Below are positions 9,451-39,656 of a stretch of 42,790 nucleotides of DNA, piece by piece (within the stretch, counting starts at the first letter, position 1; every line of letters begins with the position of its first letter). The stretch is from assembly GCF_002895565.1 (NCBI RefSeq), contig NZ_AZRN01000025.1, positions 1-42,790 on the forward strand, given 5' to 3'. The notes beneath the pieces are model-generated. The model ran no database searches. It had not been told where the DNA came from and saw nothing but the letters and a program-made list of their open reading frames with translations. Origin of the DNA: Petrotoga mexicana DSM 14811. Lineage in GTDB: Bacteria; Thermotogota; Thermotogae; Petrotogales; Petrotogaceae. Position numbers and translations under genes: made by a program.

Positions 9451-9494
9451 TATCTGGTATATATGTGAAATTTTTAACATATTACCTTAAAAAA

Positions 9495-9854
9495 TGGTGG
9501 AGACGGCGGGAATCGAACCCGCGTCCGAAAACAGGCGAAGTCGGCTTCTCCGAGCGCAGTCCGCAATCAGCTTTCGGAAATTGTGACTTTGCGGACCGAG
9601 TCACAATTTCCTATTACCCATTGATACTTCTAAAATCCGGGTAAGAGATTTTAGAAGTGGAACCTTTTTCTGACGCCTCATTCCTCAAGAGAGGTTCCAA
9701 GAAAACTTGAGGAGAGACGAGCCGCCGTCTACGCAGCAGCTAATGCTAATTCTGGTTCTTCGGCATTTCAATATTTTTTCGTTTTTTACGAGGTTTCAGA
9801 CTCCTCGACTCGCTTCCCGACTTCAGCCTATTCCCGTCGAACCCAATCGTCCCC
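9495..9854 (-). ncRNA. ssrA: Transfer-messenger RNA (tmRNA)
   Basis: Rescues stalled ribosomes and tags the unfinished protein for proteolysis. The 5' end ggggacgattgggttcgacg pairs its first seven bases with cgtctcc before the encoded CCA at the 3' end, closing the tRNA-like acceptor stem. The T arm ggttcgattcc is present. The tag frame lies at 9764-9729 and encodes AEEPELALAAA followed by TAG, ending in the hydrophobic alanine-rich tail that proteases recognise. Total mature length is about 360 nt. A run of T directly after CCA may end transcription. Open frames read across this region on either strand are artefacts of the RNA gene. Confidence 0.97.
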
Positions 9855-9869
9855 ATACTTTATTCCTTG

Positions 9870-9939
9870 ACCCCGTTCGGGGTGAATTTTTTTTACTGGG
9901 ATACATCTATATTATAACAAATTTTTAGTCCAAAATCAA
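9870..9939 (-). promoter_or_regulatory. Promoter and 5' leader hairpin of tmRNA
   Basis: On the minus strand TTGATT (9939-9934), a 17-bp spacer and TATAAT (9916-9911) form a near-consensus promoter. It overlaps the stop codon of the HEAT-repeat gene. Transcription would begin about 50 nt before the mature tmRNA end, leaving a leader with a perfect hairpin accccg-tt-cggggt (9870-9883). The leader would be removed by RNase P. Read on the plus strand, the hairpin is followed by T8 and could act as a terminator there. Confidence 0.7.
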
Positions 9940-10556
9940 GACCTTTTGAGATGCCACTCCAGCTTTTCAGATATTTCAGGGTCACGCTCTTGTAGGTATG
10001 GAACTAAATCAAAATTCTTAGTCAAGATTTTTGTTATTGAATCCAAAATAAGTACTTTTAAAGAATTGTTGGTAGTTTTATAATATTTCTCTAAAAGTAT
10101 ATCTAAAGTTTTTCTGCTTGGTAGCTCGGTGATGGCCATAACGCTTATCTCTTCTATTTCACCTTCGTCACTGTCAATATAAGTTTTCAATATATCTAAA
10201 TAAGATTCATCTTTTGTGATTTTTAATAAATTCTCTATGATCAAAGGGAAAGCCCTCTCATCTGAAAATTTATTGAACATCATCTTAAGGTTTTCCACTA
10301 TTTCGTGACACTTCAAATCAGACAAAAGTTCAGCTAGATACAACAAAACAGTATCGTCTTGAAGATTGAGATTAAATCTTCGTTTGAACTCTTGTAATAG
10401 GTATTCTTTTCCTTCGGGTGCCATCACGCTCAATGCATCCCGTGCCAATTCTCGAACTTCGTAATCTTCGTCATCTAATAGCTCTATTAAATTAGGAATA
10501 GCTTGAAGCCCTTTTTCATCTACTATCTTTTTTATCAGATCTTCACGACTGTACAT
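9936..10556 (-). CDS. HEAT-repeat protein
   Basis: A 206-residue all-helical protein. The first repeat is plain: AIPNLIELLDDEDYEVRELARDAL near residues 18-42 has the helix-turn-helix and DxxxVR pattern of HEAT/PBS-lyase repeats. Four or five weaker repeats follow (for example SYLDILKTYIDSDEGEIEEISVMAI). Such repeats form protein-binding scaffolds; no catalytic residues are visible. It begins 16 nt after recN and is probably co-transcribed with it, but a specific partner cannot be named. Confidence 0.8.
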   Translation of the reverse strand: MYSREDLIKKIVDEKGLQAIPNLIELLDDEDYEVRELARDALSVMAPEGKEYLLQEFKRRFNLNLQDDTVLLYLAELLSDLKCHEIVENLKMMFNKFSDERAFPLIIENLLKITKDESYLDILKTYIDSDEGEIEEISVMAITELPSRKTLDILLEKYYKTTNNSLKVLILDSITKILTKNFDLVPYLQERDPEISEKLEWHLKRS

Positions 10557-10572
10557 CTTTTACACATCCTTT

Positions 10573-12168
10573 TCAATAGACAATGTTTCCGTACATTTCT
10601 TTTATTTCTTCTAATCTTTCATTTTCTGATAATTTTACAATTGTTGAAGTAGTTTCTTCGTTCAACGATTTTACTATTTTAAAATGTTCAGTGGCGAAAT
10701 TTGCAACTTGTGGCATATGAGTAATTACAATAATTTGTTTATCTTTTGATAATTCGTTGAGCTTATTTCCTACGACATCGGCCATTCTTGGGCCAACTCC
10801 AGAATCAATCTCGTCAAAAACCATTGTATCAATTGCATGATTTTTTCCTAGTACAACCTCTACTGCTAATATTATTCTAGATAATTCTCCACCGGAAGCT
10901 ATTTCGGCTAAAGGCATAAATTTACTTTTTGGATTTGTTTTTAATAAAAAGGTAATCCTATGTGCGGACTCTTTTTTTGGTTCTTTTAGTTTTTCTATCT
11001 TCCAATCTATCTTACTATTCTCCATATTGAGATCCTTTAAATTATTTTCAATATGTGATTTTAAATCATTTAGAAAAGGAGTAACCTTCTCTATTATTTT
11101 ATCACTGAGTTCTAATAATTCCTCTTTCAACTTAGACAATCTCGGTTCTAATTCGTGAAAATCGTTTTTGATTTCTTCTAACTCACTTTTTTGAATTTTG
11201 AACTTGTTGAGATTTTCTAAAACATCCTCAAGAGATGGTCCATATTTCCTTTTTAACTCGATGATTTTATTCAGTCTCTCACTGACTCTTTCTAATTCTT
11301 CTGGATCAGTATCTAATTCAGACAATCTATTTTCTAAAAGGGTATATAATTCATCTATCTGCTCTTGAATAGAAGAAGCCAAGGAATATTCTTCACCGAA
11401 CCCAAAATCTTTAAGCTTTGACAGATTGTAAATTATATAACCAATTTCCTGATCAATACTTTGTTCATCTCTGTCTTTTAGTATGTTTAATGATTCCACC
11501 AATCGTTCCCTGATTTCTTCCATATTATTTAGAGTTTTAAATCTAGCAGAAAGTTCATCATCTTCACGAGGTTGCAGGTTCGCCTCTTCAATTTCCTGTA
11601 TCTGGTAGTTTAAAATATCAATATTTCGAAAGATTTCTGTTTTATTGGTTGGAAGATTTTCTAACTTTCTTTTTAAATTCAAATATTCCTGGTACCCCTT
11701 ATCGTACTCAGAAAAATACTCGGGGAATTTATCCCTCAAAATCTTAAAGATCAAAGAGTTTTGATAATTCTCATCTCTCAAAGCTATGTTGGAGTCTTGA
11801 GAATGAATTTCTAGCAGATACTTTGAAACCTCCTGAACAACGTTTCTTGGAACTATTGTATCGTTTACTCTAAAAAGCGTCTTTTTAGGAGTGAAATTTA
11901 CAGCTAAGATCAATTCATCACCATCAAAAGGTGCGTATTCCTGCAACATATCTTTAATGAATTCATTAACAGTAAAATACGCTGACACGGAACCTTCTGA
12001 GGTTTTCAGGTTTTGAGGAACGTTTCCTATTAAAAAAAGATTTAAAGCATTTAGAAACATGGATTTTCCCGTTCCCGACTCACCAGTGATAGCGCAGAAA
12101 TTGTTGCTAAAATCTACGTTAGCACTTTTAAAAAGACCAAAATTTTTTATGGACAAAGAAAGCAGCAT
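10573..12168 (-). CDS. recN: DNA repair protein RecN
   Basis: SMC-like ATPase acting early in double-strand break repair. Walker A GESGTGKS is at about residues 29-36. A long coiled-coil middle with many Glu/Lys/Leu runs from about 150 to 375. The C-terminal ATPase half has signature SGGELSR, Walker B MVFDEIDSGVG and the switch histidine ITHMPQVA. At 531 residues it is close to the usual 550. The upstream extended -10 promoter gives it its own transcript, which continues into the HEAT-repeat gene. Confidence 0.96.
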   Translation of the reverse strand: MLLSLSIKNFGLFKSANVDFSNNFCAITGESGTGKSMFLNALNLFLIGNVPQNLKTSEGSVSAYFTVNEFIKDMLQEYAPFDGDELILAVNFTPKKTLFRVNDTIVPRNVVQEVSKYLLEIHSQDSNIALRDENYQNSLIFKILRDKFPEYFSEYDKGYQEYLNLKRKLENLPTNKTEIFRNIDILNYQIQEIEEANLQPREDDELSARFKTLNNMEEIRERLVESLNILKDRDEQSIDQEIGYIIYNLSKLKDFGFGEEYSLASSIQEQIDELYTLLENRLSELDTDPEELERVSERLNKIIELKRKYGPSLEDVLENLNKFKIQKSELEEIKNDFHELEPRLSKLKEELLELSDKIIEKVTPFLNDLKSHIENNLKDLNMENSKIDWKIEKLKEPKKESAHRITFLLKTNPKSKFMPLAEIASGGELSRIILAVEVVLGKNHAIDTMVFDEIDSGVGPRMADVVGNKLNELSKDKQIIVITHMPQVANFATEHFKIVKSLNEETTSTIVKLSENERLEEIKEMYGNIVY

Positions 12169-12215
12169 TCACCACACCAACCTTAAAATCGACACTTTTT
12201 TCTTCTATCATCGAA

Positions 12216-18206: not shown

Positions 18207-20774
18207 ATGGATTTTATAAGTAAAATTACCGTCGTTCCAAAAATCCCAGAAAAGATTTCTGGGTTAAAAGAACTCTCGGAAAACATGTGGTGGACTTGGA
18301 ATTATAAAGCTCAAGCCTTATTCGAAAACATAGACAAAGAGCTTTGGGAATCCACCCAGAGAAACCCGGTCACTTTTTTAAAGCGTGTGGAACAAAAAAA
18401 GTTAAACAAAGCTGCAGAAGATTCAAAATTTAATGAACTCTATCAAGAAGTCATGAAAGGGTTCTCTGATTATATGAATGAAAATAGCAACACATGGTTC
18501 AGAAAAACCCATAGTTCTTTTAAAGAAGGGGAAATTGCTTACTTTTGTATGGAATACGGCCTTCACGAATCTTTTCCAATGTATTCTGGCGGTTTAGGGA
18601 TATTGGCTGGTGATCATCTAAAAAGTGCAAGTGATCTAGGTATACCGCTTATAGCTGTAGGTTTATTATATCAAAAGGGGTATTTCATTCAGAAGCTCAA
18701 TTCGGAAGGTTGGCAAGAAAGCATATATTTAGACTACGATTTTTCGGATTTCCCTATTATTCCCGCCAAAGACAGCAATGGAGATGAAATATATGTCGAT
18801 ATAGACCTGTTAGGGAAAAAGGTATTCGCTAAAGTTTGGCAGCTAAAGGTGGGAAGAGTGAACCTATATCTTCTAGACACCAACCTAATGCAAAATGACC
18901 CTGAAGATAGAGAAATAACCTCCACATTGTATGGTGGAGACATAGAAATGCGCATAAAGCAAGAAATACTAATAGGAATCGGTGGAGTTAAAGCGGTAAG
19001 AAAATTAGGATACAATCCTTCTGTTTGGCACATGAATGAAGGTCACGCTGCATTCTTAGGGCTTGAAAGAATACGTGAATTAGTTCAAGAACATGGCTTA
19101 ACTTTTCAGGAAGCAATTGAAACGGTTCGGGCTGGAAACGTTTTTACCACTCACACTCCTGTACCAGCTGGAAACGATGTATTTTCTATTTCTTTAATTG
19201 ATAAATATTTTGGAGACTTCTGGCCTAAATTAGGAGCTTCAAGGCAGGACTTTCTAAATTTAGGATTAGAAAAGCAACAAAGCACGGAAGAATTATTTTC
19301 AATGACCATTTTGGCGCTGAAACTCTCTGGGAGATCAAATGCAGTTTCAAGGCTACATGGAGAAGTATCAAGGAAGTTATGGAACCATGTTTGGCCTGGT
19401 ATTGAATGGTTGGAAGTACCTATAAACTATGTCACCAATGGTGTACATATAGACACATGGTTAAACCCAAAATTACAGGAATCTTTAAAAGAATACCTAG
19501 GTGCTGACTGGATGTCAAAGATTGACGATCCAGAACTTTGGGAAAAAATTGATAATATCCCTGACCATGAACTATGGGAAACTCACCAACAACTAAAGAA
19601 AGAGTTAATAGAATACATTAGGAAGAGTATAAAAGCACAAAGATCGAGACATGGAGAAACAGTTGAACAACTTGAAGAAGTAAATCAAATAGGTGATGAA
19701 AAAGCTTTAACTATTGGTTTTGCCAGAAGATTTGCTACTTACAAAAGAGCAGATTTAATATTCAGTGATGAAGAAAGATTAAAAAAGATTTTGAACGATC
19801 CGGACAAACCCGTACAATTAATATTCGCTGGTAAAGCTCATCCTGCAGATAAACCGGGTCAAGAACTCATAAAAAAGATATACGAATACTCACGAAAACC
19901 AGAATTTCAAAATAAGGTCATAATTCTGGAAAATTACGATATGGATATGGCAAGGCACTTAGTTTCGGGTGTTGACATTTGGTTAAACAATCCTAGACGT
20001 CCAAGAGAGGCATCTGGAACATCAGGTCAGAAAGCCGGAATGAATGGAGCTATAAACTTCTCAGTTTTAGATGGCTGGTGGGTTGAAGGATACAACGGTA
20101 AAAATGGATGGGCCATAGGGGACAACAGAGACTATGAAGACTTGAAATTACAGGATAAAATAGACAGTGTTTCAATATACAACCAATTAGAAAAACAAAT
20201 AGTGCCTCTGTACTATGAAAAAGAAGAATCTAACGTTTCAAAAGAATGGGTATCAAAGATGAAAGAATCTATTAAAAGTGTCACGTCTTTCTTCAACACA
20301 TCAAGAATGCTCAAAGAATACACTCAAAAACTATATATGCCAGCTCTTGAGCAACACATACGTTTTTCAAACGATGACTTTAAATTGGCAAAAGAATTTG
20401 CCGGTTGGGTTAAATTATTAAAAGAAAATTGGGACTCTATAAAAATACATGTCAAACTCGATCAAGATCTTACTGGTGTAAAAAATGCAGAAGAAGAAAT
20501 AGGAGTACAAGCAGAAATATACTTGCCAGGTATAGGTCCAGACTCAATCCTACCAGAAGTTGTATTTGCAAGGTTAAAAGATGGTAAAATAGCAAACATA
20601 AGGCGGTACGATATGAAACTCATCAAAGAAGTACAAAAAGACACATATCTATACTCAGTAAAATTTAAAATAGAAGACAGGGGGGAATATGGAATAAATG
20701 TAAGGGTAACACCTAACAATCCTCTCATGCCCCATAAAAACTACTTGATGGGACTAGTGAAATATCCTCAATAA
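18207..20774 (+). CDS. glgP: Alpha-glucan (maltodextrin) phosphorylase
   Basis: Releases glucose 1-phosphate from alpha-1,4-glucans; the phosphohexomutase at 323 would convert that product to glucose 6-phosphate. The N-terminal WWTWNYKAQALFE region is the DUF3417 lead seen in the short bacterial/archaeal phosphorylase branch. The catalytic half has FARRFATYKRADLIF and the pyridoxal-phosphate region RPREASGTSGQKAGMNGA, with the cofactor lysine in GQKAG. Family length is about 820-860 residues; this is 855. ATG 18207 follows GGGAGG by 7 nt. No obvious terminator separates it from nrdJ, which has its own promoter. Confidence 0.95.
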   Translation: MDFISKITVVPKIPEKISGLKELSENMWWTWNYKAQALFENIDKELWESTQRNPVTFLKRVEQKKLNKAAEDSKFNELYQEVMKGFSDYMNENSNTWFRKTHSSFKEGEIAYFCMEYGLHESFPMYSGGLGILAGDHLKSASDLGIPLIAVGLLYQKGYFIQKLNSEGWQESIYLDYDFSDFPIIPAKDSNGDEIYVDIDLLGKKVFAKVWQLKVGRVNLYLLDTNLMQNDPEDREITSTLYGGDIEMRIKQEILIGIGGVKAVRKLGYNPSVWHMNEGHAAFLGLERIRELVQEHGLTFQEAIETVRAGNVFTTHTPVPAGNDVFSISLIDKYFGDFWPKLGASRQDFLNLGLEKQQSTEELFSMTILALKLSGRSNAVSRLHGEVSRKLWNHVWPGIEWLEVPINYVTNGVHIDTWLNPKLQESLKEYLGADWMSKIDDPELWEKIDNIPDHELWETHQQLKKELIEYIRKSIKAQRSRHGETVEQLEEVNQIGDEKALTIGFARRFATYKRADLIFSDEERLKKILNDPDKPVQLIFAGKAHPADKPGQELIKKIYEYSRKPEFQNKVIILENYDMDMARHLVSGVDIWLNNPRRPREASGTSGQKAGMNGAINFSVLDGWWVEGYNGKNGWAIGDNRDYEDLKLQDKIDSVSIYNQLEKQIVPLYYEKEESNVSKEWVSKMKESIKSVTSFFNTSRMLKEYTQKLYMPALEQHIRFSNDDFKLAKEFAGWVKLLKENWDSIKIHVKLDQDLTGVKNAEEEIGVQAEIYLPGIGPDSILPEVVFARLKDGKIANIRRYDMKLIKEVQKDTYLYSVKFKIEDRGEYGINVRVTPNNPLMPHKNYLMGLVKYPQ

Positions 20775-20795
20775 GATTTTGTAAATTTTTAATAG

Positions 20796-20861
20796 ACCCC
20801 CTTGATTTCAATATATTGTCGTGTTATCATATAAAAGTACAATATATTGATTCAAGGGGGT
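20796..20861 (+). promoter_or_regulatory. nrdJ promoter with paired NrdR boxes
   Basis: Two copies of CAATATATTG lie at 20809-20818 and 20840-20849, 31 bp centre to centre, the three-turn spacing known for NrdR repressor sites. The promoter is TTGATT (20802-20807), 17 bp, TATCAT (20825-20830). The first box fills the spacer and the second covers the transcription start. Both sit in a longer inverted repeat whose arms begin acccccttga and end tcaagggggt. Known biology: NrdR with bound dATP represses ribonucleotide reductase genes. Confidence 0.88.
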
Positions 20862-20868
20862 AATTTTC

Positions 20869-23391
20869 ATGAGAGTTTTAAATAAATGGATCCAAAAAGA
20901 ACCATCGAAGAATGCAATCACCATATTAAAAGACAGATATTTCTTAAAAGATGGCGAAGGGAATTATTTAGAAAGCACATGGGATGAAGTTTCAAAAAGG
21001 ATTGCAAGACATGTTGCTGCAGCTGAAGTAAACTATACCAGTGATATAGAAGAAATAAAAAATGCAGAAGAGCATTTTTATCAACTAATTAAATCTCGAA
21101 TTTTCTTACCAAACAGTCCAACGATATTCAACGCAGGCAAAACAATGGACAGACAATTATTCAAAAAAGATATAGAAGAAACAACTTTAGAAGACTACAA
21201 AACAATTTTTGATTCAAGAACAAAACACAACATGTTATCTGCATGTTTTGTAATCCCTATGGACGACTCAATGAGCGCCATATTTGATGCGGTAAAAAAT
21301 GCTGCTTTAATAATGAAATATGGAGGAGGAGTAGGATACGACTTCTCTGTTTTACGTCCAAAAGGTTCTTCTATCGCTGGAACAGGGGGAAAATCCTCCG
21401 GACCCATTAGCTTCATGCATGTTTTCAACACAGCAGCTTCCACGATAGAACAAGGTGGGGCAAGGCGGGCAGCTCAAATGGCTGTACTAAGGTATGATCA
21501 TCCCGATGTCTTTGACTTTATAAATTCCAAAAAAGACAACAAAGGCAACAATGTCTTGAATTACTTCAACATTTCAGTGAACATTGACAACCCAAAAGAA
21601 TTCAAAAAAATGCTCGAAGAAAATGGAGATCTCACCTTAGAACATCCCGCATCATCCATAAGAAAGACTATCAAGGCAAACGATCTAATGAACAAAATGG
21701 TAGAAAACGCATGGAAAACGGGAGATCCTGGCATGCTCTTCCTTGGCAGACACAATCAATACTACGCAATGAGTGAACATACCCCAGTCACCGCCACAAA
21801 CCCTTGTGGAGAAGAACCACTACCACCTTTTGGAAGTTGTAATCTCGGTTCTATAGACGTTGCAAAGTTAGTTGAAGACATGGATTTAGGAAACCCAAAC
21901 TCGGATGATATTTCAGAATTCCAAGAAATAATATATTGGGCTGTTAGATTTTTAGATGACGTCATAGAATCAAACATCTATCCTCTAAAAGAAATTGAAG
22001 AAATGTCTAAAAAGCAAAGATTTATTGGATTAGGAATAATGGGATTAGCAGATGCGTTGTACAAAAAAGAGCTACCTTACAACTCAGAACAAGCCAGAAA
22101 ATTCATGGCAAAATTAACCGCTGAATTAGCGTATTTCTCTCATGTTGCAAGTACTGAATTAGCCAAAGAAAGGGGCAATTTCCCAGATTTTCAAAGATCC
22201 AAATACCCGCACGGTTTCATACCATTTCCCATGTTGGATGACGAAATAGACGAAGACATAAAAGCATGGAATGAAAAAATACGTCAACATTTTCAAGGCG
22301 AAGCTACAAAATACAAAAGAAATGTACAAACGAACACCATAGCCCCAACAGGTTCAATATCTAACTTGGCAGATACATCAAGTGGGATTGAGCCAAATTT
22401 CTTACTATCCTATGTAAGATACATGACCAACAAAGAAGGAGACAGAGTTCCCCTATCTTACATAAATCCAATATTAATGGAAAAAATAGGCACCAACATG
22501 ACAGAAGAGTTAAAAGCTGAAATCATTGAAAAAGGAAGCATTCAAAATATAGACAGCATACCAAACGAAATCAAAAAAATATTTGTAACCTCAATGGACA
22601 TACCACCAAAAGATCATTTATTAGCCCAACACGTAATTCAAAGTTATCTTGATGCATCATGCTCTAAAACTATAAACATGCCTAAATCTTCAACAATAGA
22701 AGACGTTAAAGCTATCTATCTACAAGCATTAGAATTAAACCTAAAAGGATTAACTATTTACAGAGATGGGAGCCTTGAAACTCAAGTTCTAACCTCCGCT
22801 TCCAAAGAAGAAAAGGAAACATCCGAAACACAAGGCAAAAACGTTACATTCTTCGTATTGGATGAAAAACATAAACTAAGAGCAAGGCCAAGAAAAGAAA
22901 CCTTACGAAGCGTCACACGAAAGTTCAAACACGACACGGGAACAGTATACGTCACCGTCTCCTTTGATGATGGCGGTGAAGCCGTAGAAATCTTTCTATC
23001 AGATGGCACAGAAACTGCAGAGGTTATTGGAAGATTATCATCCATAGCTTTAAGAGCAGGCGTTTCAACTGATGAAATAGTTGAGCAATTAAAAAAAGTT
23101 AAGGGAACATATTGTAAAGAATTGGCACAAGAAATAAGCAAAGCCCTCAACGATTTCAACCAATTATGGGAATCTCAAATAGAAGATTATGAAGTAATAA
23201 GAACGGGAACGCCGAAAACCAGGGAAGAAGTAGAAAAATTCGTATACGCCAACGACTTAAAATACGAAAAAGGATATTATATAGACTCAGAAGGCAACGC
23301 ATACTGCCCAAGCTGCTTATCTAAAAATACCCTGATAAACGAATCAGGCTGTGTTACCTGCACCACTTGCGGATGGTCAAAGTGTTCTTAA
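20869..23391 (+). CDS. nrdJ: Adenosylcobalamin-dependent (class II) ribonucleotide reductase
   Basis: Reduces ribonucleotides to deoxyribonucleotides using coenzyme B12 to start the radical, without oxygen or a second subunit. LSACFVIPMDDS near residue 122, NPCGEEPLPPFGSCNLGSIDV near 307 with the active-site cysteine, and the phosphate loop NTIAPTGSISNLADTSSGIEPNF near 490 are class II hallmarks. The C-terminal 200 residues hold a DUF-like domain (DTGTVYVTVSFDDGGEAVEIF) and end in a cysteine-rich tail CPSC...CVTCTTCGWSKCS, the thioredoxin-reducible/zinc-ribbon end of thermotogal and related NrdJ. 840 residues. AAGGGGGT precedes the ATG by 8 nt. Regulation by NrdR is visible upstream. Confidence 0.96.
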   Translation: MRVLNKWIQKEPSKNAITILKDRYFLKDGEGNYLESTWDEVSKRIARHVAAAEVNYTSDIEEIKNAEEHFYQLIKSRIFLPNSPTIFNAGKTMDRQLFKKDIEETTLEDYKTIFDSRTKHNMLSACFVIPMDDSMSAIFDAVKNAALIMKYGGGVGYDFSVLRPKGSSIAGTGGKSSGPISFMHVFNTAASTIEQGGARRAAQMAVLRYDHPDVFDFINSKKDNKGNNVLNYFNISVNIDNPKEFKKMLEENGDLTLEHPASSIRKTIKANDLMNKMVENAWKTGDPGMLFLGRHNQYYAMSEHTPVTATNPCGEEPLPPFGSCNLGSIDVAKLVEDMDLGNPNSDDISEFQEIIYWAVRFLDDVIESNIYPLKEIEEMSKKQRFIGLGIMGLADALYKKELPYNSEQARKFMAKLTAELAYFSHVASTELAKERGNFPDFQRSKYPHGFIPFPMLDDEIDEDIKAWNEKIRQHFQGEATKYKRNVQTNTIAPTGSISNLADTSSGIEPNFLLSYVRYMTNKEGDRVPLSYINPILMEKIGTNMTEELKAEIIEKGSIQNIDSIPNEIKKIFVTSMDIPPKDHLLAQHVIQSYLDASCSKTINMPKSSTIEDVKAIYLQALELNLKGLTIYRDGSLETQVLTSASKEEKETSETQGKNVTFFVLDEKHKLRARPRKETLRSVTRKFKHDTGTVYVTVSFDDGGEAVEIFLSDGTETAEVIGRLSSIALRAGVSTDEIVEQLKKVKGTYCKELAQEISKALNDFNQLWESQIEDYEVIRTGTPKTREEVEKFVYANDLKYEKGYYIDSEGNAYCPSCLSKNTLINESGCVTCTTCGWSKCS

Positions 23392-23414
23392 AAATATATA
23401 TATAACAAATATTC

Positions 23415-23445
23415 AAACCCGGTGGAAATGCTCACCGGGTTTTTA
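23415..23445 (+). terminator. Intrinsic terminator of nrdJ
   Basis: A perfect 10-bp stem aaacccggtg/caccgggttt with an 8-nt loop, followed by TTTTTAT, begins 23 nt after the nrdJ stop. Confidence 0.9.
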
Positions 23446-23503
23446 TATCGTAAATACGACTTAGCTATAATAATTTTAATAACCTAGATTTTATTATCAG
23501 AAA

Positions 23504-23854
23504 CTATTCTTTATCTACTTTTTTACTGCTAGAATAACTAATTACCTTTACATCTTCTACAGTAATTAATCCATCTTTAACTAATTCCTGGACCTCAGGT
23601 AATATTTTTTCAATCTTTTCAGCCTCATCTACCACTTCTATTATCAAAGGAAGATCTGAGGATAATTGTAAAATATGTGCACTTTCTATTCTACTATTTA
23701 AGCCGAAACCTTCTATGCCTCTAATGACAGTGGTACCAGCCATCCCAGCCTTTTTAAACTTCTTAACTAAAACGTGGTAAAGTGGCTCATGATTCCATTT
23801 ATCTGTTTCACCGATATATATTTTTAAAATCTTGCCTTCTCCTGAATATTGCAT
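23504..23854 (-). CDS. DUF190 family (PII-like) protein
   Basis: A 116-residue protein of the DUF190 family, a small ferredoxin-like fold related in shape to PII signalling proteins. Visible family features are LKIYIGETDKW at the start, the loop KAGMAGTTVIRGIEGFG near residues 36-52 and DLPLIIEVVDEAEKIEKILPEV. DUF190 genes commonly lie next to crcB, as here (59 nt downstream), which suggests a role in fluoride response; the biochemical function is not settled. ATG 23854 has AAAGGAG upstream. Confidence 0.9.
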   Translation of the reverse strand: MQYSGEGKILKIYIGETDKWNHEPLYHVLVKKFKKAGMAGTTVIRGIEGFGLNSRIESAHILQLSSDLPLIIEVVDEAEKIEKILPEVQELVKDGLITVEDVKVISYSSSKKVDKE

Positions 23855-23913
23855 GATTTTCTCCTTTCTATGGACTACCTAGCAATTTAAATAAATTTAT
23901 TAAGAAAACGGAA

Positions 23914-24291
23914 TTAGCTAATAGCCTTTGCTAGAATAATGCCTCCCATAACAGAAACAAGACCTAAGAGCAAATTCGAAAGGATATTCATTCCAGCAAA
24001 GAACCAATCTCGTTCTTCAATAAGAACAACTGTCTCATAACTAAAGGTTGAAAAAGTAGTCAGAGCACCGATAAATCCCGTAGTGATTGCCAATCTAAGG
24101 TAAGGATGAGTTAAACCTTTCTCTAGGAAAAAGGTCATTATAAATCCAAGAAGAAAAGATCCAAGAAGATTAACTATTAAAGTACCATAAGGCAAAACAC
24201 CCTCAAGTTTCAAGCTTACCCACCTCGAAAGCAAAAATCGACTAATCGCTCCAAAAAATCCTCCTAACCCTACAAAGAAAATTTCTACCAT
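23914..24291 (-). CDS. crcB: Fluoride ion channel CrcB/Fluc
   Basis: Small membrane protein that dimerises to let fluoride leave the cell. Four hydrophobic segments fill its 125 residues. The family motifs GGFFGAISRFLLSRWV at the N-terminus, GTLIVNLLGSFLLGF near residue 40 and TGFIGALTTFSTFSYETV near residue 73 are all present, including the conserved Asn and the TTFSTFS pore region. ATG 24291 follows AAAGGAG. The AT-rich upstream region has TATAAT-like boxes but no fluoride riboswitch that I can recognise. Confidence 0.95.
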   Translation of the reverse strand: MVEIFFVGLGGFFGAISRFLLSRWVSLKLEGVLPYGTLIVNLLGSFLLGFIMTFFLEKGLTHPYLRLAITTGFIGALTTFSTFSYETVVLIEERDWFFAGMNILSNLLLGLVSVMGGIILAKAIS

Positions 24292-24384
24292 ATTTGGCTC
24301 CTTTCTTTTTCCAAAGATCTTTTAACATTATTATATATTATAATTATTCAAAAACAAAAAAAGTTATAATATTTACGGAGACCT

Positions 24385-24497
24385 TCAAAAAAGTGTTAAA
24401 CGTCACGACCTTTTTATCTTAAGTATATGAATTGATTCTTAACAATCTCTCAAAGTTTTGTTTGACAATCTTAATTTTTTATGATAATATAAAATAA
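24385..24497 (+). promoter_or_regulatory. CRISPR-leader-like promoter before the 24645 gene
   Basis: TTGACA (24462-24467), 17 bp, TAATAT (24485-24490) is a strong promoter. The stretch from caaagttttg through ttgacaatc to taattttttatgata is nearly the same as the leader directly before the CRISPR repeats at 33.4 kb. The part to its left (aagtgttaaa ... ttaacaat.tctcaaagttttg) matches 42523-42590 upstream of cas6. No CRISPR repeat follows here; instead a leader of about 150 nt with a small hairpin atacta-ttg-tagtat (24534-24548) leads to the gene at 24645. The rest of the 353-nt gap is AT-rich with nothing else clear. Confidence 0.65.
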
Positions 24498-24644
24498 CTT
24501 GCTTTCTTTAGCTTACCTTAGCTAATCATCCGCATACTATTGTAGTATTAGGGTATATCTTTACAAAAAAATAATAACCAAATCAAAAACAAATTTTTAG
24601 TGCTGTTTTTTTTGTTGTATAAACAATCACGAGGGGGGAACAAA

Positions 24645-25169
24645 ATGAAAAAGGGTTTAATTTTAACTTTGATATTGTTGGTAGGCATGCTTTCACTATT
24701 TTCACAAGATTCAATGACTGAGGCTCCTGAAGAACAAATTACACAGATCCTGACCACGAACCCACTTGGATCATTATTTGGTTTCTACAACGTTTCATAC
24801 GAAAGGCCACTTTCCTCAAGTGGTTCGATCCAGGTCAGCGCTCTTGTACAGTCCTTAGATATCATTATTGCACAAGTCAGCACTTTCGGCGGTGGTGTGG
24901 CATATCGCAACTACCTACATCAGACTGCACCAAGTGGTTTCTACGTTGCCCCAAGCGTTAGTGTGCTATATGGCTCAGCGATGGAAGATATCTACGACAC
25001 AGAGGGTTCTGTGCGTTTTCTCCTCGTAGGTGGTGTTGCAGGTTACCAGTGGATAAGTATCGGAGGATTTGTGGTCGACATCTCTGCTGGTGTAAATGCG
25101 ATTTTTGGTGCGCCAATACAACCAATCACATCTCCGGGGTTCGGTTTTGCCGTAGGATATGGATGGTGA
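24645..25169 (+). CDS. Small exported beta-barrel-like protein (DUF3575-like)
   Basis: A 174-residue protein with a clear signal peptide KKGLILTLILLVGMLSLFS. The mature part begins around QDSMTEAPEEQ. It then has NPLGSLFGFYNVSYERPLSSSGSIQVSA, resembling the start of DUF3575 barrels, followed by alternating strands with glycines (FGGGVAYRNYL, GFYVAPSVSVLYG, FLLVGGVAGYQW) and a C-terminal aromatic (GFGFAVGYGW) as in outer-membrane proteins. In Thermotogae the toga is an outer membrane, so that is the likely location. ATG 24645 follows GAGGGGGG. The gene looks richer in G+C than crcB and nrdJ, which suggests foreign origin; the promoter looks borrowed from a CRISPR leader. Confidence 0.75.
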   Translation: MKKGLILTLILLVGMLSLFSQDSMTEAPEEQITQILTTNPLGSLFGFYNVSYERPLSSSGSIQVSALVQSLDIIIAQVSTFGGGVAYRNYLHQTAPSGFYVAPSVSVLYGSAMEDIYDTEGSVRFLLVGGVAGYQWISIGGFVVDISAGVNAIFGAPIQPITSPGFGFAVGYGW

Positions 25170-25372
25170 GCTCCTTAAATTAATTTTTGATAACTGATCA
25201 ACTTTTGATTGACATTAGTAAATAGTTCATCATCTTTATTAAATAAACTGGGGAGTTTAGAATCGAATTATTATACAAAGTTAACAGTGAATAAATAATT
25301 TAACTAAACTCTATACGAATTTATATTCGCATATTTGACCTAATAATAAAAAAAGAAATTAATATCAAAAAA

Positions 25373-25418
25373 GTCTGTCGACCTGCTATAAGATAAAAAT
25401 ACAATGTGGTCGACAGAT
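25373..25418. repeat. Conserved GTCGAC hairpin element, copy 1
   Basis: The arms gtctgtcgacc (25373-25383) and ggtcgacagat (25408-25418) pair over at least 10 bp around a 24-nt loop containing ataagataaaaat. The DNA to the left (taataataaaaaaagaaa...) also matches the second copy at 42475-42522. Frames that read FYLI.GRQTF in both places are this hairpin read as protein. Confidence 0.7.
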
Positions 25419-25583
25419 GAGGAATGGAACGTAAGGGAAGGATATAGTTATATACGAAGGCAGAAAGTATATTGTTAAAAATATACAAGATAAGAGTAGA
25501 TACTTCAAAACTTGTAAAGCTTTCCAACCCACTAAAAACTGAACTTCTTAGGCTTTATATCTTTCGAAAAGGGTTATATATAG

Positions 25584-25667: not shown

Positions 25668-25963
25668 GAAAATGTTAGGTAATTAAGCTGAGGTTGAATT
25701 AAGTCTTTCCATTATTTTATCATTCTAATTTTTAGCGGTGTATTTTTCACCTTAATTTACAATTCATTTTTTATACCCATACTTCGTAAAAGTAAACTAA
25801 TTTTTTGTTATAAAAAACAAACAAAGTATGTTATAATATATTTATATTTTTTAAATTTAAGGTCTTTTAGTATTACGAATTTTTACAGAATAAGACTATT
25901 ACCATTTGCTAGTAATTTCAAAGAGAGTAACAACAAAATTTTAAAGAAGGAGGGGAGGAGTGT

Positions 25964-30898: not shown

Positions 30899-31699
30899 GA
30901 ATATCCTAAGAGAGGAGACGTTGATATTGCCCTTTATTCTGCTACTGGTGGAGCAAAGATGTACGCAAAGGTAATTGAAAACATTAGATTAGTGGGAGTT
31001 TATGTCTGGAAGGCAGTTTATGTGGTTGCTGGAAAAGACGTCTCCGATTGGGGAGACCTCAAGGGAAAAGATGTTTATATTGATTTTAGAGGAGGGTCGC
31101 CTGACATCATTGCTCGAGCATCAATGAAAGCAGCAGGTTATGATCCTGATAAAGATTTTAATATAAAGTATTTGCCCGGAAGTGAAATAAAAAGGCTCAT
31201 TCTTTCCGGGCAAGCAGATGCCGCGGTTTTTCCAGAACCCCACATTTCTCAGTTAGTCCTCGCCTCTGGTGGAAAGATGAATGTGGCGATAGATTGCCAA
31301 GAAGGATTTGTAAAGAGTATCTCCGGCTGGGAAAAAGGTGAGGAAATCCCTATAGGAGGGCTTTGGGTAGTAGTTTCGAACATCGAAGGTAAGGAGAAAG
31401 CTGTAGAAAAGTTCATTGATGCCTTTGATGAGGCTAATGATTACGCTATAAAACACCCTCAAGAAGTTGGTAATTTTACCTCCAAATGTTTTAAACAGTA
31501 CTTTGGCGCTGAATTTCCTTCAAAAGCTGTTGAAGATTCTATCATGTCTGGACGTCTCAAGTTGGACTTCATAGAAGTAGAAGATGTAAAGCCGCTCATG
31601 CCTTCTTATCTTGAAAGCTTAGGGTTCCCTATTCCTGATGAAGGAATTTATTACAAAGCTGAAATATCGCTTCCAGAAGAAGATGATTCTGATGATTAG
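30899..31699 (+). pseudogene. 5'-truncated NitT/TauT-type ABC substrate-binding protein
   Basis: The coding pattern is clear from GDVDIALYSATGGAKMYAKV (about 30914 on) to the acidic end EEDDSDD. It continues in frame upstream of the only ATG (30959) until a stop at 30896. It has the second-half features of NMT1/SsuA/TauA-type binding proteins: WGDLKGKDVYIDFRGGSPDIIARASMKAAG, and IKRLILSGQADAAVFPEP. The signal peptide and roughly the first 80-100 residues are missing, so the product could not be exported. Permease and ATPase genes follow intact. The break faces the end of the CO dehydrogenase block, suggesting the insertion or a rearrangement destroyed the 5' end. Translation from 30959 is possible but would give a cytoplasmic fragment. 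Confidence 0.75.
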
Positions 31700-33247: not shown

Positions 33248-33310
33248 TACAAAAAATCCATTGAAAGCAAAATTAAACAATTATTCAAATATTAGATTAT
33301 GGAATGAAAA

Positions 33311-33463
33311 TTTAATGTTTAATCTCATTTCAATGCTACTGATATTTTAAATTAAAAATCAAGGTATATCTTGTAATATATTTTATCATACGATAATAAA
33401 AAAGCAAAGTTTTGATTGACAATCGTAATTTTTTATGATATAGTATTTATAGCTATCTTATGC
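33311..33463 (+). promoter_or_regulatory. CRISPR leader with cas6 start-region remnant
   Basis: Immediately left of the first repeat is a promoter, TTGACA (33416-33421), 17 bp, TATAGT (33439-33444). Further left, 33311-33410 closely copies 42362-42455: both contain gtttaatctcatttcaat and gatattttaaattaaaaat, then taatatattttatcatac.ataataaaaaa. At 42.4 kb the first of these is the cas6 start, so a few cas6 codons survive here on the minus strand. The leader was therefore duplicated together with its cas6 junction. Confidence 0.75.
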
Positions 33464-33562
33464 CTTTTTATCCTACCTATAAGGAATGGAAACTTTGTTG
33501 AAATAAACAATGGAAATCAAGTTGATGATTCACTTTTTATCCTACCTATAAGGAATGGAAAC
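33464..33562 (+). CRISPR. Minimal CRISPR array: two repeats, one spacer
   Basis: Two identical 30-nt repeats (33464-33493 and 33533-33562) begin ctttttatcctacct and end ggaatggaaac. They flank a 39-nt spacer. The end atggaaac fits the 8-nt tag left by Cas6 in type I-B. The leader lies on the left, so transcription runs rightward, towards the 3' end of the cas operon. After the second repeat come about 35 nt that may be part of another spacer, but no third repeat; decayed sequence follows. Confidence 0.88.
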
Positions 33563-34091: not shown

Positions 34092-34367
34092 TTAAATAAT
34101 GAAGTCATCAGGTTCTCCTTTTTCCACTCCATAAGTTTCTTTGATAAAAATTTTTCGAGATTCGAAAATGTACCAAGTAATGCTATCTTCGTCCTTTTTT
34201 GTGATTTTTCTTATCTGCTGTTTTAAGATCTCATATTTTGCTTTTGTTATTTCTCCTTCCAGCAAGGAATTTTGTACCCAGTTCAGGTATTGTCTCGCTT
34301 TTTTTAAAACTTTTGCAACTCTTTTCTCATTAACGTCATAAGCCATAATTACGTACGTTTTTACCAC
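34092..34367 (-). CDS. cas2: CRISPR adaptation protein Cas2
   Basis: Small structural partner of Cas1 in the spacer-integration complex. The first strand YVIMAYDVN ends with the conserved Asp/Asn. RVAKVLKKARQYLNWVQNSLLEGEIT is the expected helix and strand, with the usual SVFEG-like segment as NSLLEGEI. 91 residues is normal. The GTG start (34367) overlaps the cas1 stop by 7 nt, so translation is coupled. Last gene of the operon. Confidence 0.95.
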   Translation of the reverse strand: MVKTYVIMAYDVNEKRVAKVLKKARQYLNWVQNSLLEGEITKAKYEILKQQIRKITKKDEDSITWYIFESRKIFIKETYGVEKGEPDDFII

Positions 34368-35362
34368 CTCATCGTAAAAGGAACGTATTCTTTTTCTTCG
34401 ATCAGATGTTTTAAAATTTTATAAGCCTCATGTTTTATCAATGTTCTGTAGGTAATATTTCTTTTTAATTTTTTATGTTTTAAAGTTGTACTTAAGTGTT
34501 CTTCATAATTTTTTATAAAATTTTTTTGGCCTTCTTCGTTCAAGTGAATACCACCTTGAATTTTTTTAAAATGTTTTTCATTAATTATTTTTTTATTCAC
34601 AAGGTTAAAAATAGTTCTGTCTACCACAATAGGCTTAAATATTTCAGCTATATCAAGGTTCAAAGAAAATTTTCTAAAGTTAGTTGAATGAAGATAGCCA
34701 ATTCTAGGATCTAATGGTGTTTGATAAATTTGCGTTAAAACTGTAGAGTACATTAAAGAGTTCCCAAAACTGATAAGAGTGTTCATATAATTTGTAGGGG
34801 GCCTTTTTTCTCTGACAACCATTTTGAAATCTTCATTTGAGATTATATTGTTATCAATAAAATTATAATAAATCTCTCTATAATTTCCCTCTTGTGCCAT
34901 TAATTCATTAATAGAACTGATCTGGTGAATATTCTGAATAAATTCTTCCATTTTTTGCGAATACCGTTTTACTTCAAAATCGCTTTTTCTTTCATAATAT
35001 TGAACAATTTTTAAGATGTTTTGCATAGCTCCTTCCACAAACTTTTTTGCTAAAACTAATCTTTTTTCTGAAGAGATATAGTGCTCTACTTGTTTAACTA
35101 TTGTTATTCCATTTGTATTATGTTCATATGGATAAAAACTTCCAACATAAAAACCATAGTGGTTGAAAAAATGGAGCGGTAAGTTATTGGCGGACAAAAA
35201 TTCAAGAAGTCGTTTATTTATATTTATTTCTCCAAATATCTTTATTTCTGAAATATTTTCTATTGGGAAGTACTTAGTTTTTTCATCAGATTCACTTTTA
35301 AAGGCTAGTGTGTTTCCTTTTCTAGTTAATGTTCCACTTTGAAATATATAAATAGGTTTCAA
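34361..35362 (-). CDS. cas1: CRISPR integrase Cas1 (type I-B)
   Basis: Metal-dependent integrase that inserts new spacers. The protein begins KPIYIFQSGTLTRKGNTL, the usual I-B Cas1 N-terminus. The catalytic half follows with LGFLHST-like GYLHSTNFRKFSLNLDIAEIFKPIVVDR (conserved His, then Asp/Glu). I use TTG 35362 as start because GGGAGAGG precedes it by six bases and homologous proteins begin at MKPIY. An ATG 39 nt earlier lies inside cas4 and lacks a site. This gives 333 residues and leaves one base after the cas4 stop. Confidence 0.94.
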   Translation of the reverse strand: MKPIYIFQSGTLTRKGNTLAFKSESDEKTKYFPIENISEIKIFGEININKRLLEFLSANNLPLHFFNHYGFYVGSFYPYEHNTNGITIVKQVEHYISSEKRLVLAKKFVEGAMQNILKIVQYYERKSDFEVKRYSQKMEEFIQNIHQISSINELMAQEGNYREIYYNFIDNNIISNEDFKMVVREKRPPTNYMNTLISFGNSLMYSTVLTQIYQTPLDPRIGYLHSTNFRKFSLNLDIAEIFKPIVVDRTIFNLVNKKIINEKHFKKIQGGIHLNEEGQKNFIKNYEEHLSTTLKHKKLKRNITYRTLIKHEAYKILKHLIEEKEYVPFTMRW

Positions 35363-35363
35363 T

Positions 35364-35876
35364 TTATTCCTCTCCCGCCCAACATAATTCTGCAAAGCCA
35401 CATTTTGAACACATCCCTATCCATTTTGGTGGAGGTGGAACAGGCGATTCAATTAATTCATTGAGTTTAAGAAGTATATCTTGTATTTCTTTTTTGGCTT
35501 CCTCATCGAATACAATGGGAATTCTCTTTTTTTCTTTTGGCAACAGAATTTCCCCCTTTGCTTGAACGCCCATATCCTCCAATAATTTTAAATAATATAA
35601 TAACTGGATTTTGGCTCCTTTAAAAGACTTTGAGGATTTTTTGATTTCTCCAACTATGGTACACTTATTATCATTCCAAATTAAATCAATCACTGCTCCT
35701 GGAAGTTTTATTTCTTTTTCACCTTTCCCTTCATAAGAATTCTTGTGTAAAAACCTTCCTAGTTCTATGTAAGGGTTATCTTGTTCAGGAGTGAATCTCC
35801 TTAAAACAAACCAAGCTTCTCTTGGACATATTGAATAAGCTAAAACTGAATATCCTGTAATGATATTGTCATCCAT
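35364..35876 (-). CDS. cas4: CRISPR-associated exonuclease Cas4
   Basis: RecB-like nuclease that trims prespacers and checks the PAM for Cas1-Cas2. The PD-(D/E)XK core is seen as AVIDLIW then GEIKKSSK. The four iron-sulfur cysteines are one near the N-terminus (YSICPREAW, residue 17) and three near the C-terminus (CSKCGFAELC). 170 residues fits the short I-B form. The ATG overlaps the cas3 stop by 8 nt (ATGGATGA). Confidence 0.95.
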   Translation of the reverse strand: MDDNIITGYSVLAYSICPREAWFVLRRFTPEQDNPYIELGRFLHKNSYEGKGEKEIKLPGAVIDLIWNDNKCTIVGEIKKSSKSFKGAKIQLLYYLKLLEDMGVQAKGEILLPKEKKRIPIVFDEEAKKEIQDILLKLNELIESPVPPPPKWIGMCSKCGFAELCWAGEE

Positions 35877-38070
35877 AAAAATCCTCTTTCAATTCATACG
35901 GAATAAACCCTACTTCTTCAGAATAAATTTCCCCAATGCCTAACTGCGTAATCAACCAAACTCCATTACCTTTATACACAAGCTTTTTATCTTCTTCTAG
36001 GAATACTTCATTATAATGGGTTTCCCATTCTTCTAGTTCTTTGTGAGGAACATTTATAGAATAATCTTGAATTTCTTTCCATAGTTGTTTTTTTCTTTCG
36101 TAATTTTCTAAACTATGTTCCAAACTTTCAACTTCATATAATTTGTTTGAAACTGTTCCATCCACATCTACAAACACCACATCCTCGTATAAATGTTCTT
36201 CTATCAGAGGTTTATAATTACTCCAATTTCCTTCTTTTATGTCATACCATGGACCTTTTTGATATTTGCTAACTGACAATGCCTTGTAATATTTATCTAG
36301 TAGTTGTTGAACTTCGTTTTCTGAAAATTTATTTTTGTAGGCAAATATTTCTTTTGTATTATTTAGCGATATGCTATCGTACACATAAGAAGCATACGAT
36401 CTTTCATTATCACTTTCATCGTCTACTATTTCAGCAACCGTTACTGTGCCAAGTTCTTTTAGCATTCTTCTATTACATCTTCCAGCAGCTTGGACTATGC
36501 TGTCAAAGGGGGATAAATCTTTAAAGATATAATCAAAGTCCAAATCCACTCCGGCTTCTACTACTTGGGTAGATATGAGATTTCTTGGCAAGTTTTTATT
36601 TTCCAACTGTTTGATCTGTTTAATTCTGTCAAGCCTTTCTTTAGGAATTACCCAAGTTGAAAGAAAGAAAAGGTTATTTTTCAAATGTTCTCGGAGTAAG
36701 ATAAAAGTTTTTAGCGCTTCTTTTTTTGTGTTAAGAATAATTAGAGACGGGTTGTCAGCTCTCTCTTTTGTATATTGCTTTATATCTGAAAGAAATATTT
36801 TTTTATTAATTATGTTGTAAGAGTGCCTGTTTTTTGGGAAAGAACTCTTGGGGGCTAACTCTTTACCTTCTGCCATTTTAGGTTGTGTAGCGGTCATTAA
36901 AATGAAAAAAGTTCCCATCTTTTTTGAAAGAAAAGACATGGTTTCCCCAAATCCTTGCCAATATTCTGGAGGGATCGACTGAGGTTCATCCAAAATAACT
37001 ACCGCATCTTTTAACCTATGAAAACTCATAGAATCGTTGGCATTAGGAGAATAAAGCACTTCCCAAAACTTTGCGAGGGTTGTAACAATGAGTGGTTCTT
37101 TGAAGTATCTAAAAGAAAGTATAAACCTTTCTAAATTATCTAAATCTTCTTTTTCCTTTGATGCACTTACCAAATGATGGTCTTCTTGCACTTTGTCGTA
37201 TATGTTCTTTGCAACTTCGGAATTTTGATCAACAATACTTATGAACGGTAATACATAAATAATTGTTTTAAGAGAAAGTTTATTTGCTAACTTCATCGAT
37301 GCTTGCAATCCCGTTATAGTTTTTCCTGCTCCAGTAGGGAGCGTTATGGTATAGATACCTGGTTCTGAAATTGTATCAACGTTTGATAATGTACTTTCTC
37401 GAATTTCATTTTTCCAATCGCTTAAATGGTTCTTTGGAAGTGATTCAAGAAATTTGTCGAACCTATCTTGTTGATAAGAAATTTTATCAAAATTGATCCT
37501 ATCAACATTTAACGCATCTAGCCTATCAGATGTTATAAAAATTGAATTCTCGATTCTCGTATTAAACCATAAATCTTCAGCCTTAACCGTCTTATTTAAA
37601 AGATACTGTGAATGCCAAGATTGAAATATTAATCTTTTCCATTCTTTTTCTGTTAGATATTCAATTTTGCTTAGATCAAGGAATTCTTCTAATGCTTTTA
37701 TCACGTCTTGATAATTTAAATTTCTCCAAAAAGACATTATATCTTCAAAATTTAGCTGGTATGAATGATGTCTTCTAACAATCTCAGCTTGAAAGATATC
37801 TTTTGTAAGCATAAAAGTTAAGTAAGAAGAAGGCTCAGAGTGCGGATAATGACCTTTTTTTGTCTTTAAATATTTTTGAAATTTAACATGTGATTTAGCT
37901 ACATCATGTGTTAGACAGATATGTTTTAGTGTTTCGACTAATTCATTGTCTCCATGAAAATTTGATATCTCTTTGGATTTTTCAAATACTCCTTTTAAAT
38001 GATCTTTAAGAAGTTTACCCGGATGGCTTTCTTGACCATTCAGGAAGCCAAACAATTTCGTCGTTTCCAA
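35869..38070 (-). CDS. cas3: CRISPR helicase-nuclease Cas3
   Basis: Degrades the target DNA after Cascade binding. The N-terminal HD nuclease has THDVAKSH with H55/D56 and an upstream His in HPGKLLKDHL. The SF2 helicase has Walker A LPTGAGKT near residue 245, box II ILDEPQS, motif III MTATQP, and motif VI QAAGRCNRR after STQVVEAGVDLDFD. 733 residues, HD and helicase in one chain. The start is TTG 38070 with GGGGGAG six bases upstream; it lies 56 nt inside cas5 in another frame. That overlap is large but needed to include the conserved FLNGQESHPG. Confidence 0.96.
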   Translation of the reverse strand: METTKLFGFLNGQESHPGKLLKDHLKGVFEKSKEISNFHGDNELVETLKHICLTHDVAKSHVKFQKYLKTKKGHYPHSEPSSYLTFMLTKDIFQAEIVRRHHSYQLNFEDIMSFWRNLNYQDVIKALEEFLDLSKIEYLTEKEWKRLIFQSWHSQYLLNKTVKAEDLWFNTRIENSIFITSDRLDALNVDRINFDKISYQQDRFDKFLESLPKNHLSDWKNEIRESTLSNVDTISEPGIYTITLPTGAGKTITGLQASMKLANKLSLKTIIYVLPFISIVDQNSEVAKNIYDKVQEDHHLVSASKEKEDLDNLERFILSFRYFKEPLIVTTLAKFWEVLYSPNANDSMSFHRLKDAVVILDEPQSIPPEYWQGFGETMSFLSKKMGTFFILMTATQPKMAEGKELAPKSSFPKNRHSYNIINKKIFLSDIKQYTKERADNPSLIILNTKKEALKTFILLREHLKNNLFFLSTWVIPKERLDRIKQIKQLENKNLPRNLISTQVVEAGVDLDFDYIFKDLSPFDSIVQAAGRCNRRMLKELGTVTVAEIVDDESDNERSYASYVYDSISLNNTKEIFAYKNKFSENEVQQLLDKYYKALSVSKYQKGPWYDIKEGNWSNYKPLIEEHLYEDVVFVDVDGTVSNKLYEVESLEHSLENYERKKQLWKEIQDYSINVPHKELEEWETHYNEVFLEEDKKLVYKGNGVWLITQLGIGEIYSEEVGFIPYELKEDFYG

Positions 38071-38743
38071 CTAAGACTCCCCCTATCTCTTCAGGATTAT
38101 CAACAAAAATTCCCGTATCGATATTGGCTGGGTAAAAAACTGACAAGCTTTTAGTAAGGCCTCTTTCTTTGTCCATTTGTAGAGGGACAATGTCTTTAAA
38201 GATTCCATGAGTTTTTTTCAGATTAATTTTGGGCTTAATATCTGCAGGTATGATACTTTTTATTCTTGCCTCATCGTCTTCGATCTTTAGCGGGTTGAAA
38301 GATCCTATGTAATGAATATTTGCAAATGAATATGCGGTACCAAGATATGGGGTAAAAACAAAACTACCTTCTTCAAGAAAAGGTTTTAATTTTTCTTCTA
38401 TAGGACCTTCTACATAAATTCGATATTTTGGTCTTTTTACAAATTGATGTTTTATAATATTGTGAATACCCTTTTTTGGGTCTTTATTATTCCACAAGTT
38501 TATACTGGTGGTGAACCATTGAGTGGGAGACAGTATTGAAATGGCGATTCTGTTTCCATACAATGATTCCCAATAAGAAGCCAAATGAGCTTTATTTTCC
38601 GATTTGTTCTCTACTCCAATTATAGCCGCAATCAATCCTCCAACAGCTGTTGGTGGTGGGAAGGGATAAGATGCGGAAGAAGTGGTTGTATAAAATTTGC
38701 GAAACATAGCATACTCCCCTGTAATATCAAAAACAAGGGCCAT
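38015..38743 (-). CDS. cas5: Cascade subunit Cas5 (type I-B)
   Basis: Binds the 5' handle of the crRNA at the foot of Cascade. The N-terminus MALVFDITGEYAMFRKFYTTTSSASYPFPPPTAVGGLIAAIIGV carries the Cas5 FRK...T.. SYPFPPPTAL.G pattern; I count 242 residues. GAGGTGAT precedes the ATG. Four nucleotides separate it from cas7 and its 3' end overlaps cas3. Confidence 0.93.
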   Translation of the reverse strand: MALVFDITGEYAMFRKFYTTTSSASYPFPPPTAVGGLIAAIIGVENKSENKAHLASYWESLYGNRIAISILSPTQWFTTSINLWNNKDPKKGIHNIIKHQFVKRPKYRIYVEGPIEEKLKPFLEEGSFVFTPYLGTAYSFANIHYIGSFNPLKIEDDEARIKSIIPADIKPKINLKKTHGIFKDIVPLQMDKERGLTKSLSVFYPANIDTGIFVDNPEEIGGVLVGNDEIVWLPEWSRKPSG

Positions 38744-38747
38744 TGTA

Positions 38748-39656
38748 TCACCTCAATTCCATAGCTACTTTATCTTCTCCCAAAATACTTTTTAGATCAT
38801 CAATATATTGTACTTCCAAGTCAGGATCCTTGATAATTATTATCTTTTCTATATTATCTTTGAGTAAAGAAACCTTATCACATATTTCCTTCAAATTGAG
38901 AGCAATGTCTTGAATATTTCGGATTGCCAATTGTTCATCGTCATCTAACAAAGAATTATCTCTTTTGGTTAATTTTATTCTTTCATCCAAAGAACCAATT
39001 AATCCATTGAAATTAGGCTGGTACACAATCTCCATCAAAAAGCGAGATCTATGCTCAGTTTTACTCCTTGTGATTAAATTGTTGGTTCCATTCCAAACAG
39101 CTTGTGTAAGTTTGTTGAAATCCTCGTCTGTTGCTTGTGTCCTTTCAGATGCATATTGATTTCCAATTGCATAGGTTCCAATCAATGCAAAAGGAACTAT
39201 ATATTCATTTCTTATAGTTCTCTGTTCTCCACCTTCTTTAGTGACAAACGCGCCGGTTCCTTGTACAAATTCAACTTTTGCTTTGTGTAAAGATCTTCCC
39301 CATTTAAATTGGACAGGTCCAGTCCATGCAAAACTTTCCTTACCCAATGCGAATGTTACACCGAAAAGTCTTGTATCGATACATTTCTTTAGAGTTTCAT
39401 CTCCTTTTGTGGTAGACAATTTTGTTTTGAGCTCTTCGAATCTTTCTTTTAAAGATTTTGGTTCTCCATCAATGAAAACATCTTCTCCCATTCTCATTAA
39501 TTCGTCTCTGATAGTTCTTTTAATTCTAACGTCAGATACTAAAACTTGGCCTGTTTCTTCATCGTATCTTGGATGATTTGCATTCAATGGATCACCGTTT
39601 GGATTCGCATCTTTTACAGAGTATAAAAACAGAAGTTCTTTTCTGCCGTTAAACAT
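38748..39656 (-). CDS. cas7: Cascade backbone subunit Cas7 (Csh2 type)
   Basis: Multiple copies coat the crRNA spacer in Cascade. The N-terminus reads LFLYSVKDANPNGDPLNANHPRYDEETGQ and continues VLVSDVRIKRTIRD, the Csh2 signature (DANPNGDP and DVR.KRT.RD). FGVTFALG and GPVQFKWGRSLH are further family blocks. 302 residues. The ATG overlaps the stop of the upstream gene by 8 nt. Confidence 0.96.
   Translation of the reverse strand: MFNGRKELLFLYSVKDANPNGDPLNANHPRYDEETGQVLVSDVRIKRTIRDELMRMGEDVFIDGEPKSLKERFEELKTKLSTTKGDETLKKCIDTRLFGVTFALGKESFAWTGPVQFKWGRSLHKAKVEFVQGTGAFVTKEGGEQRTIRNEYIVPFALIGTYAIGNQYASERTQATDEDFNKLTQAVWNGTNNLITRSKTEHRSRFLMEIVYQPNFNGLIGSLDERIKLTKRDNSLLDDDEQLAIRNIQDIALNLKEICDKVSLLKDNIEKIIIIKDPDLEVQYIDDLKSILGEDKVAMELR

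Follow-up and report, generated by a model that had tools for sequence, protein, structure and literature searches.

A block at positions 24387-24497 of the window, by which we mean the whole stretch of 42,790 nucleotides from Petrotoga mexicana DSM 14811 analysed here, is well supported by its sequence as an orphan leader of the type I-B CRISPR system of this genome, and the region around it is equally well supported as a dismantled and scrambled array site. The explanation that we favour, and hold to be probable, adds to this relic the chance capture of the leader's promoter by a chimeric gene lying directly behind it. The sequence-only reading had offered the loss of an array and the recruitment of a leader as promoter as alternatives; these are not exclusive, and each is compatible with the other. 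The features of the site are as follows.

23914-24291, minus strand: crcB, which borders the site on the left; collinear at 98% with the nearest relative (G005) up to 24389
24387-24497, plus strand: orphan CRISPR leader (block A), AT-rich left part and promoter core, without an intact repeat behind it
24462-24490, plus strand: predicted promoter, TTGACA, 17 nt, TGaTAATAT (TGaTATAGT in active leaders)
24498-24520, plus strand: possible decayed 5' half of a first repeat (TGCTTTCTTTAGCTTACCT against TGCCTTTTTATCCTACCT), p 0.04-0.14, not significant alone
24521-24707, plus strand: segment resembling the start of a sugar-ABC solute-binding-protein gene (5' region, signal peptide), 81% identical to G005 contig C35
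24645-25169, plus strand: chimeric ORF of 174 aa, predicted to be exported, without counterpart in other genomes of the phylum except for signal-peptide matches
25175-25240, plus strand: weak second leader-like stretch (TTTTGATTGACATTAGTAA) directly behind the ORF, p 0.0015-0.026 according to the leader used
25342-25417, plus strand: inverted-repeat element (GTCTGTCGACC..GGTCGACAGA), found directly 5' of leaders in relatives
25417-25429, plus strand: CRISPR repeat, exact 13-nt 3' part (ATGAGGAATGGAA), joined directly to the hairpin, random-window p about 0.001
25713-25939, plus strand: stretch sharing 75% identity with the sequence that leads up to the Cmr-like (type III-B) operon in G005

Identity of block A

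In a whole-genome search, block A matched the truncated leader B (33405-33440) with 94% identity over 36 nt (E 1.4e-9), which bears out the likeness to the 33.4 kb leader from which the sequence-only reading had started, and region C (42522-42591) with 80% identity over 70 nt (E 9.7e-12). The likeness to the 42.5 kb region, also noticed before, therefore stands, but the region is more than sequence upstream of cas6: it forms the first (5') half of the main array's leader. Allowing up to three mismatches, the core TTGACAATCKTAATTTTTTATGAT occurs in the window at 24462 and 33416 only, and in none of 100 shuffled sequences. A slightly looser 24-nt promoter core, searched for across the genus, is present in 11 copies in six congeneric genomes (none for the reversed control). 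A CRISPR repeat lies behind ten of these eleven, including a minus-strand copy in G003, and block A is the sole exception; the sequence is thus a CRISPR leader rather than a common promoter type. The exact leader core found no match in viral contigs or in GTDB genome contigs, a set that possibly does not include this genus.

Block A is homologous to array leaders over the leader length, sharing approximately 100 nt with the type I-B leaders of the genus (G001-G005 and contig C15), including the -35 element, the TG element, the spacing and the sequence between the -35 and -10 elements. It departs from them in its -10 element (TATAGT changed to TAATAT), in the displacement of the hairpin to the other side of the ORF, and in its position, which is not directly 5' of the first repeat of an array. 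As had been noted from the sequence, no intact repeat follows it, full repeat scores being reached in the window at 33464 and 33533 only. We use the term orphan leader, and not working leader, because only the non-significant half-repeat stands behind it; spacer uptake is probably no longer possible, as is expected from the loss of the leader-repeat junction. Block A is distinct from every other leader of the genome. A comparison of leaders assigned to it no private changes in the 25-nt core and six in the other 72 nt, a conservation of the core that carries little statistical weight, since all leaders are nearly identical there.

The array site and its counterparts in related genomes

The nearest relative, G005, is 98.2% identical and collinear over window positions 20039-24389, and carries, beside crcB, a hairpin, a leader and an array of at least 22 repeats, followed by genes resembling a Cmr (type III-B) operon, as read from the sequences and not from a profile search. 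In G001 the order is nrdJ, hairpin, leader, array, P-type metal ATPase (read from the sequence) and cas2, and in G002 and G004 a hairpin, leader and array again follow nrdJ, so that an array occupies the same site in all four relatives. The suggestion that an array was lost here is upheld by the hairpin-leader-array of G005 and by the half repeat at 25417, repeat debris close to block A. Leader A itself is without hairpin and without repeats, the hairpin standing approximately 0.9 kb further on, beyond the ORF. The leader with its possible half repeat and the hairpin with the other half repeat look like pieces of a single hairpin-leader-repeat unit. The stretch that precedes the Cmr-like operon in G005 here precedes a CO dehydrogenase operon.

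Leader A and the leader of G005 are about 79% identical (approximately 21% different), whereas their left flanks differ by only 2%. Since a leader of this identity adjoins a 98% identical flank, an exchange of CRISPR alleles must have been involved, and simple decay of an orthologous array is ruled out as the sole history of the site. The interval between leader and cas genes emerges as an insertion hot spot in the genus, having received a P-type ATPase in G001, a Cmr-like operon in G005 and a CO dehydrogenase operon here.

Two side observations concern this region. An inverted repeat (GTCTGTCGAYC..GATCGACAGAC) is conserved directly 5' of most of the leaders examined in the genus, with the exception of A and B, and forms a stable hairpin (z -4.6), behind which the minus strand has a run of T; its copies in the window lie at 25342-25417 and 42467-42521. 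Behind the CO dehydrogenase operon, an NMT1-like substrate-binding protein (30959-31699) is apparently truncated at its N-terminus.

The gene behind the leader and its putative promoter

The ORF, which is joined to leader A with no more than a few bases between them, is, as judged from its composition, a chimera, because 187 nt from 24521 match the start of a solute-binding-protein gene of G005, spanning its 5' region, ribosome-binding site and signal peptide, and because the GC content of the body differs (45%, against 34.6% for the contig). The matching gene adjoins an IS110-type element in G005, and partial copies of the segment precede further transport or sugar genes of the genome of the window. 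The reading frame comprises 174 intact codons, with a strong ribosome-binding site, a signal peptide and a C-terminal aromatic residue. No Pfam or NCBIfam family matched it. A search of 102 other genomes of the phylum gave matches to the signal peptide but no full-length relative, and plasmids and phages gave nothing; one Bacteroidia genome codes for a protein resembling residues 29-149 with 31% identity. The earlier description of the product as barrel-like is an impression for which the C-terminal aromatic residue speaks; structure prediction without an alignment was of low confidence (pLDDT 40).

The promoter scan recovered a single promoter-like site on the plus strand upstream of the ORF, that of leader A (10/12, with TG element). 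No terminator-like sites were predicted between the leader and the ORF start, and folding of the 5' untranslated region indicated no unusual structure (z 0.51). The solute-binding-protein region of G005 that resembles the 5' part of the ORF has no promoter-like site on the matching strand. That the captured leader promoter drives the ORF is plausible, because the -35 element, the TG element and the 17-nt spacing are intact and no other promoter-like site lies upstream, but the chances are about evenly balanced; a weak promoter within the transplanted segment may have escaped the scan.

Weighing the explanations

Under the favoured combination of relic and promoter capture, the array region would have been replaced or scrambled by recombination, which brought a chimeric exported gene to a position directly behind the leader. 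This gene presumably consists of a foreign GC-rich body to which a solute-binding-protein gene contributed the 5' region and the signal peptide. RNA polymerase would then start at approximately 24497 from the -35, TG and -10 elements of the leader, a step about as probable as its opposite, and the transcript would read the gene through an untranslated region of 148 nt, which is likewise less certain. Such a capture would have come about by chance, and regulation by the CRISPR system is not needed to account for it. The most serious competitor, although we consider it clearly the less probable, retains the relic and denies the capture alone: leader and ORF would both be debris, the promoter silent or its transcript useless, and the ORF a non-functional fusion. 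The heavy rearrangement of the locus, the six private changes outside the core, and a chimeric ORF with neither a family match nor relatives in the genus are in keeping with it. The persistence of an intact frame over all its codons, with ribosome-binding site, signal peptide and C-terminal aromatic residue, the intact promoter core and the resemblance to the Bacteroidia protein argue in the opposite direction. We regard as improbable the stronger proposal that the gene has been kept for strong constitutive or CRISPR-co-regulated expression, an envelope protein and the crRNAs sharing control; the intact core and its being the only promoter-like site upstream of the ORF would agree with selection, but leaders in the genus give no evidence of regulation, and the arrangement is a single event that recurs in no second genome.

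An error of assembly, with repeats dropped after block A or the contig misjoined between 24498 and 25417, deserves consideration, as a contig break inside a leader and adapter-like sequence at the contig end from about 42660 suggest that CRISPR regions were hard to assemble in this genome. We nonetheless think it very unlikely, for the DNA on both sides of block A is unique and coding, block A differs from all other leaders of the genome, and the ORF between the relics is non-repetitive. An ordinary sigma-70 promoter resembling a leader by chance, which the TTGACA and TAATAT hexamers might suggest, has next to no probability: the similarity reaches well past the hexamers and all other copies of the core in the six genomes lead CRISPR arrays, which together refute it.

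Comparison with known systems

Leader remnants are known from degraded CRISPR-Cas loci of Escherichia and Salmonella (PMC2886076), beyond which we found no direct precedent for solo or orphan leaders in the literature. The resemblance lies in a leader that stays at its chromosomal site after the decay of the system; in contrast to those remnants, the genome of the window retains an intact cas operon and a further intact array, only the array of leader A is gone, and a foreign gene stands behind it. CreTA-type modules (PMC9458426) offer a second comparison, as CRISPR-derived sequence outside arrays adjoins a small gene in both cases and a crRNA, that of spacer 34 (see below), partly matches the promoter at A. 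Unlike CreTA, the site has no ectopic repeat-flanked antitoxin RNA, no toxin RNA and no demonstrated repression; spacer 34 belongs to the main array, and not to an ectopic repeat giving a crRNA-like RNA against a toxin promoter. Block A provides a concrete case in which lost arrays can leave intact-looking promoters behind, and its site illustrates how a leftover promoter can end up ahead of an arriving gene. The chimeric gene and the leader-matching spacer set it apart in interest from most leader remnants.

Leaders B and C, the main array and the cas operon

The remaining CRISPR features of the window are the following.

33405-33562, plus strand: leader B (truncated) and an array of two repeats and one spacer
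34092-42380, minus strand: type I-B cas operon, with cas6, split cas8 (TM1802 type), cas7, cas5, cas3, cas4, cas1 and cas2
42444-42592, plus strand: hairpin element and first (5') half of main-array leader C, continuing at position 27 of contig C15 into 97 repeats

To the left of the core of leader B lies a copy of the start and promoter of cas6 (83% over 122 nt, window 33287-33407), and for this reason B is an internally deleted leader, which originated by internal deletion or by recombination. Contig C15 opens with the promoter (3') half of a leader followed by 97 repeats, and on its far side (7127-12206) it runs collinear, at 91%, with what follows the cas6-proximal array in the complete genome G001, in which cas6, hairpin, leader and array are contiguous. 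From this join and the contiguity in G001 it follows that the contig of the window stops inside the leader of the main array; block A accordingly corresponds to both halves of that leader.

The end of the contig (42593-42790) looks chimeric and holds CTCTTATACACATTTCAGAGCCCACGAGAC and ATCTCGTATGACGT, which we take to resemble Nextera and P7 adapter, presumably as read-through from about 42660. As they are adapter-like, the bases of the window from about that position are unfit to build on. In the cas operon, cas8 is split into ORFs of 493 and 161 aa (39649-41612), a split shared with G001; in this type I-B operon the small subunit thus seems to have a gene of its own.

Spacers matching CRISPR loci

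Spacer 34 of the 97-repeat main array (contig C15 of this genome, locus L046, 2302-2337) is the reverse complement of leader sequence. It matches the leader of the first array of G001 at 36/36 positions and block A at 33/36, covering the -35 element. The C25 and C15 parts of the main leader are matched separately at 20/20 and 24/24, and the joined C25/C15 leader, by inspection, at 36/36 if the contig ends overlap by a shared C. Provided that this join holds, spacer 34 would be a self-targeting spacer against the CRISPR leader of its own genome, and the self-match may explain the contig break. The 5' flank of its target is AAA; the spacers of the main array, compared with phage genomes for a PAM, gave no match. 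A spacer against the own leader would gain weight if crRNA 34 acts on that leader. We give very little credence to the more far-reaching idea that the envelope gene shares its control with crRNA synthesis, with the effector carrying crRNA 34 binding both the own leader and block A and so tuning array transcription as well as the envelope gene.

Spacers directed against CRISPR loci occur at least twice in the genus. The leader-proximal (first) spacer of the cas6-side array of G003 (L074, 14441-14477) matches cas7 in the window and in G001, with 94% identity to the window copy (39553-39584), and is thus a spacer against a cas gene of another strain. In several arrays the distal repeats are interrupted by an insertion of approximately 19 nt (GGAATGGAgggtaggtgGAGGAATGGAAAC), recurrently at one place in the repeat (L070, 18300-18700; L072, 12200-12300; L075, 13865-14150).
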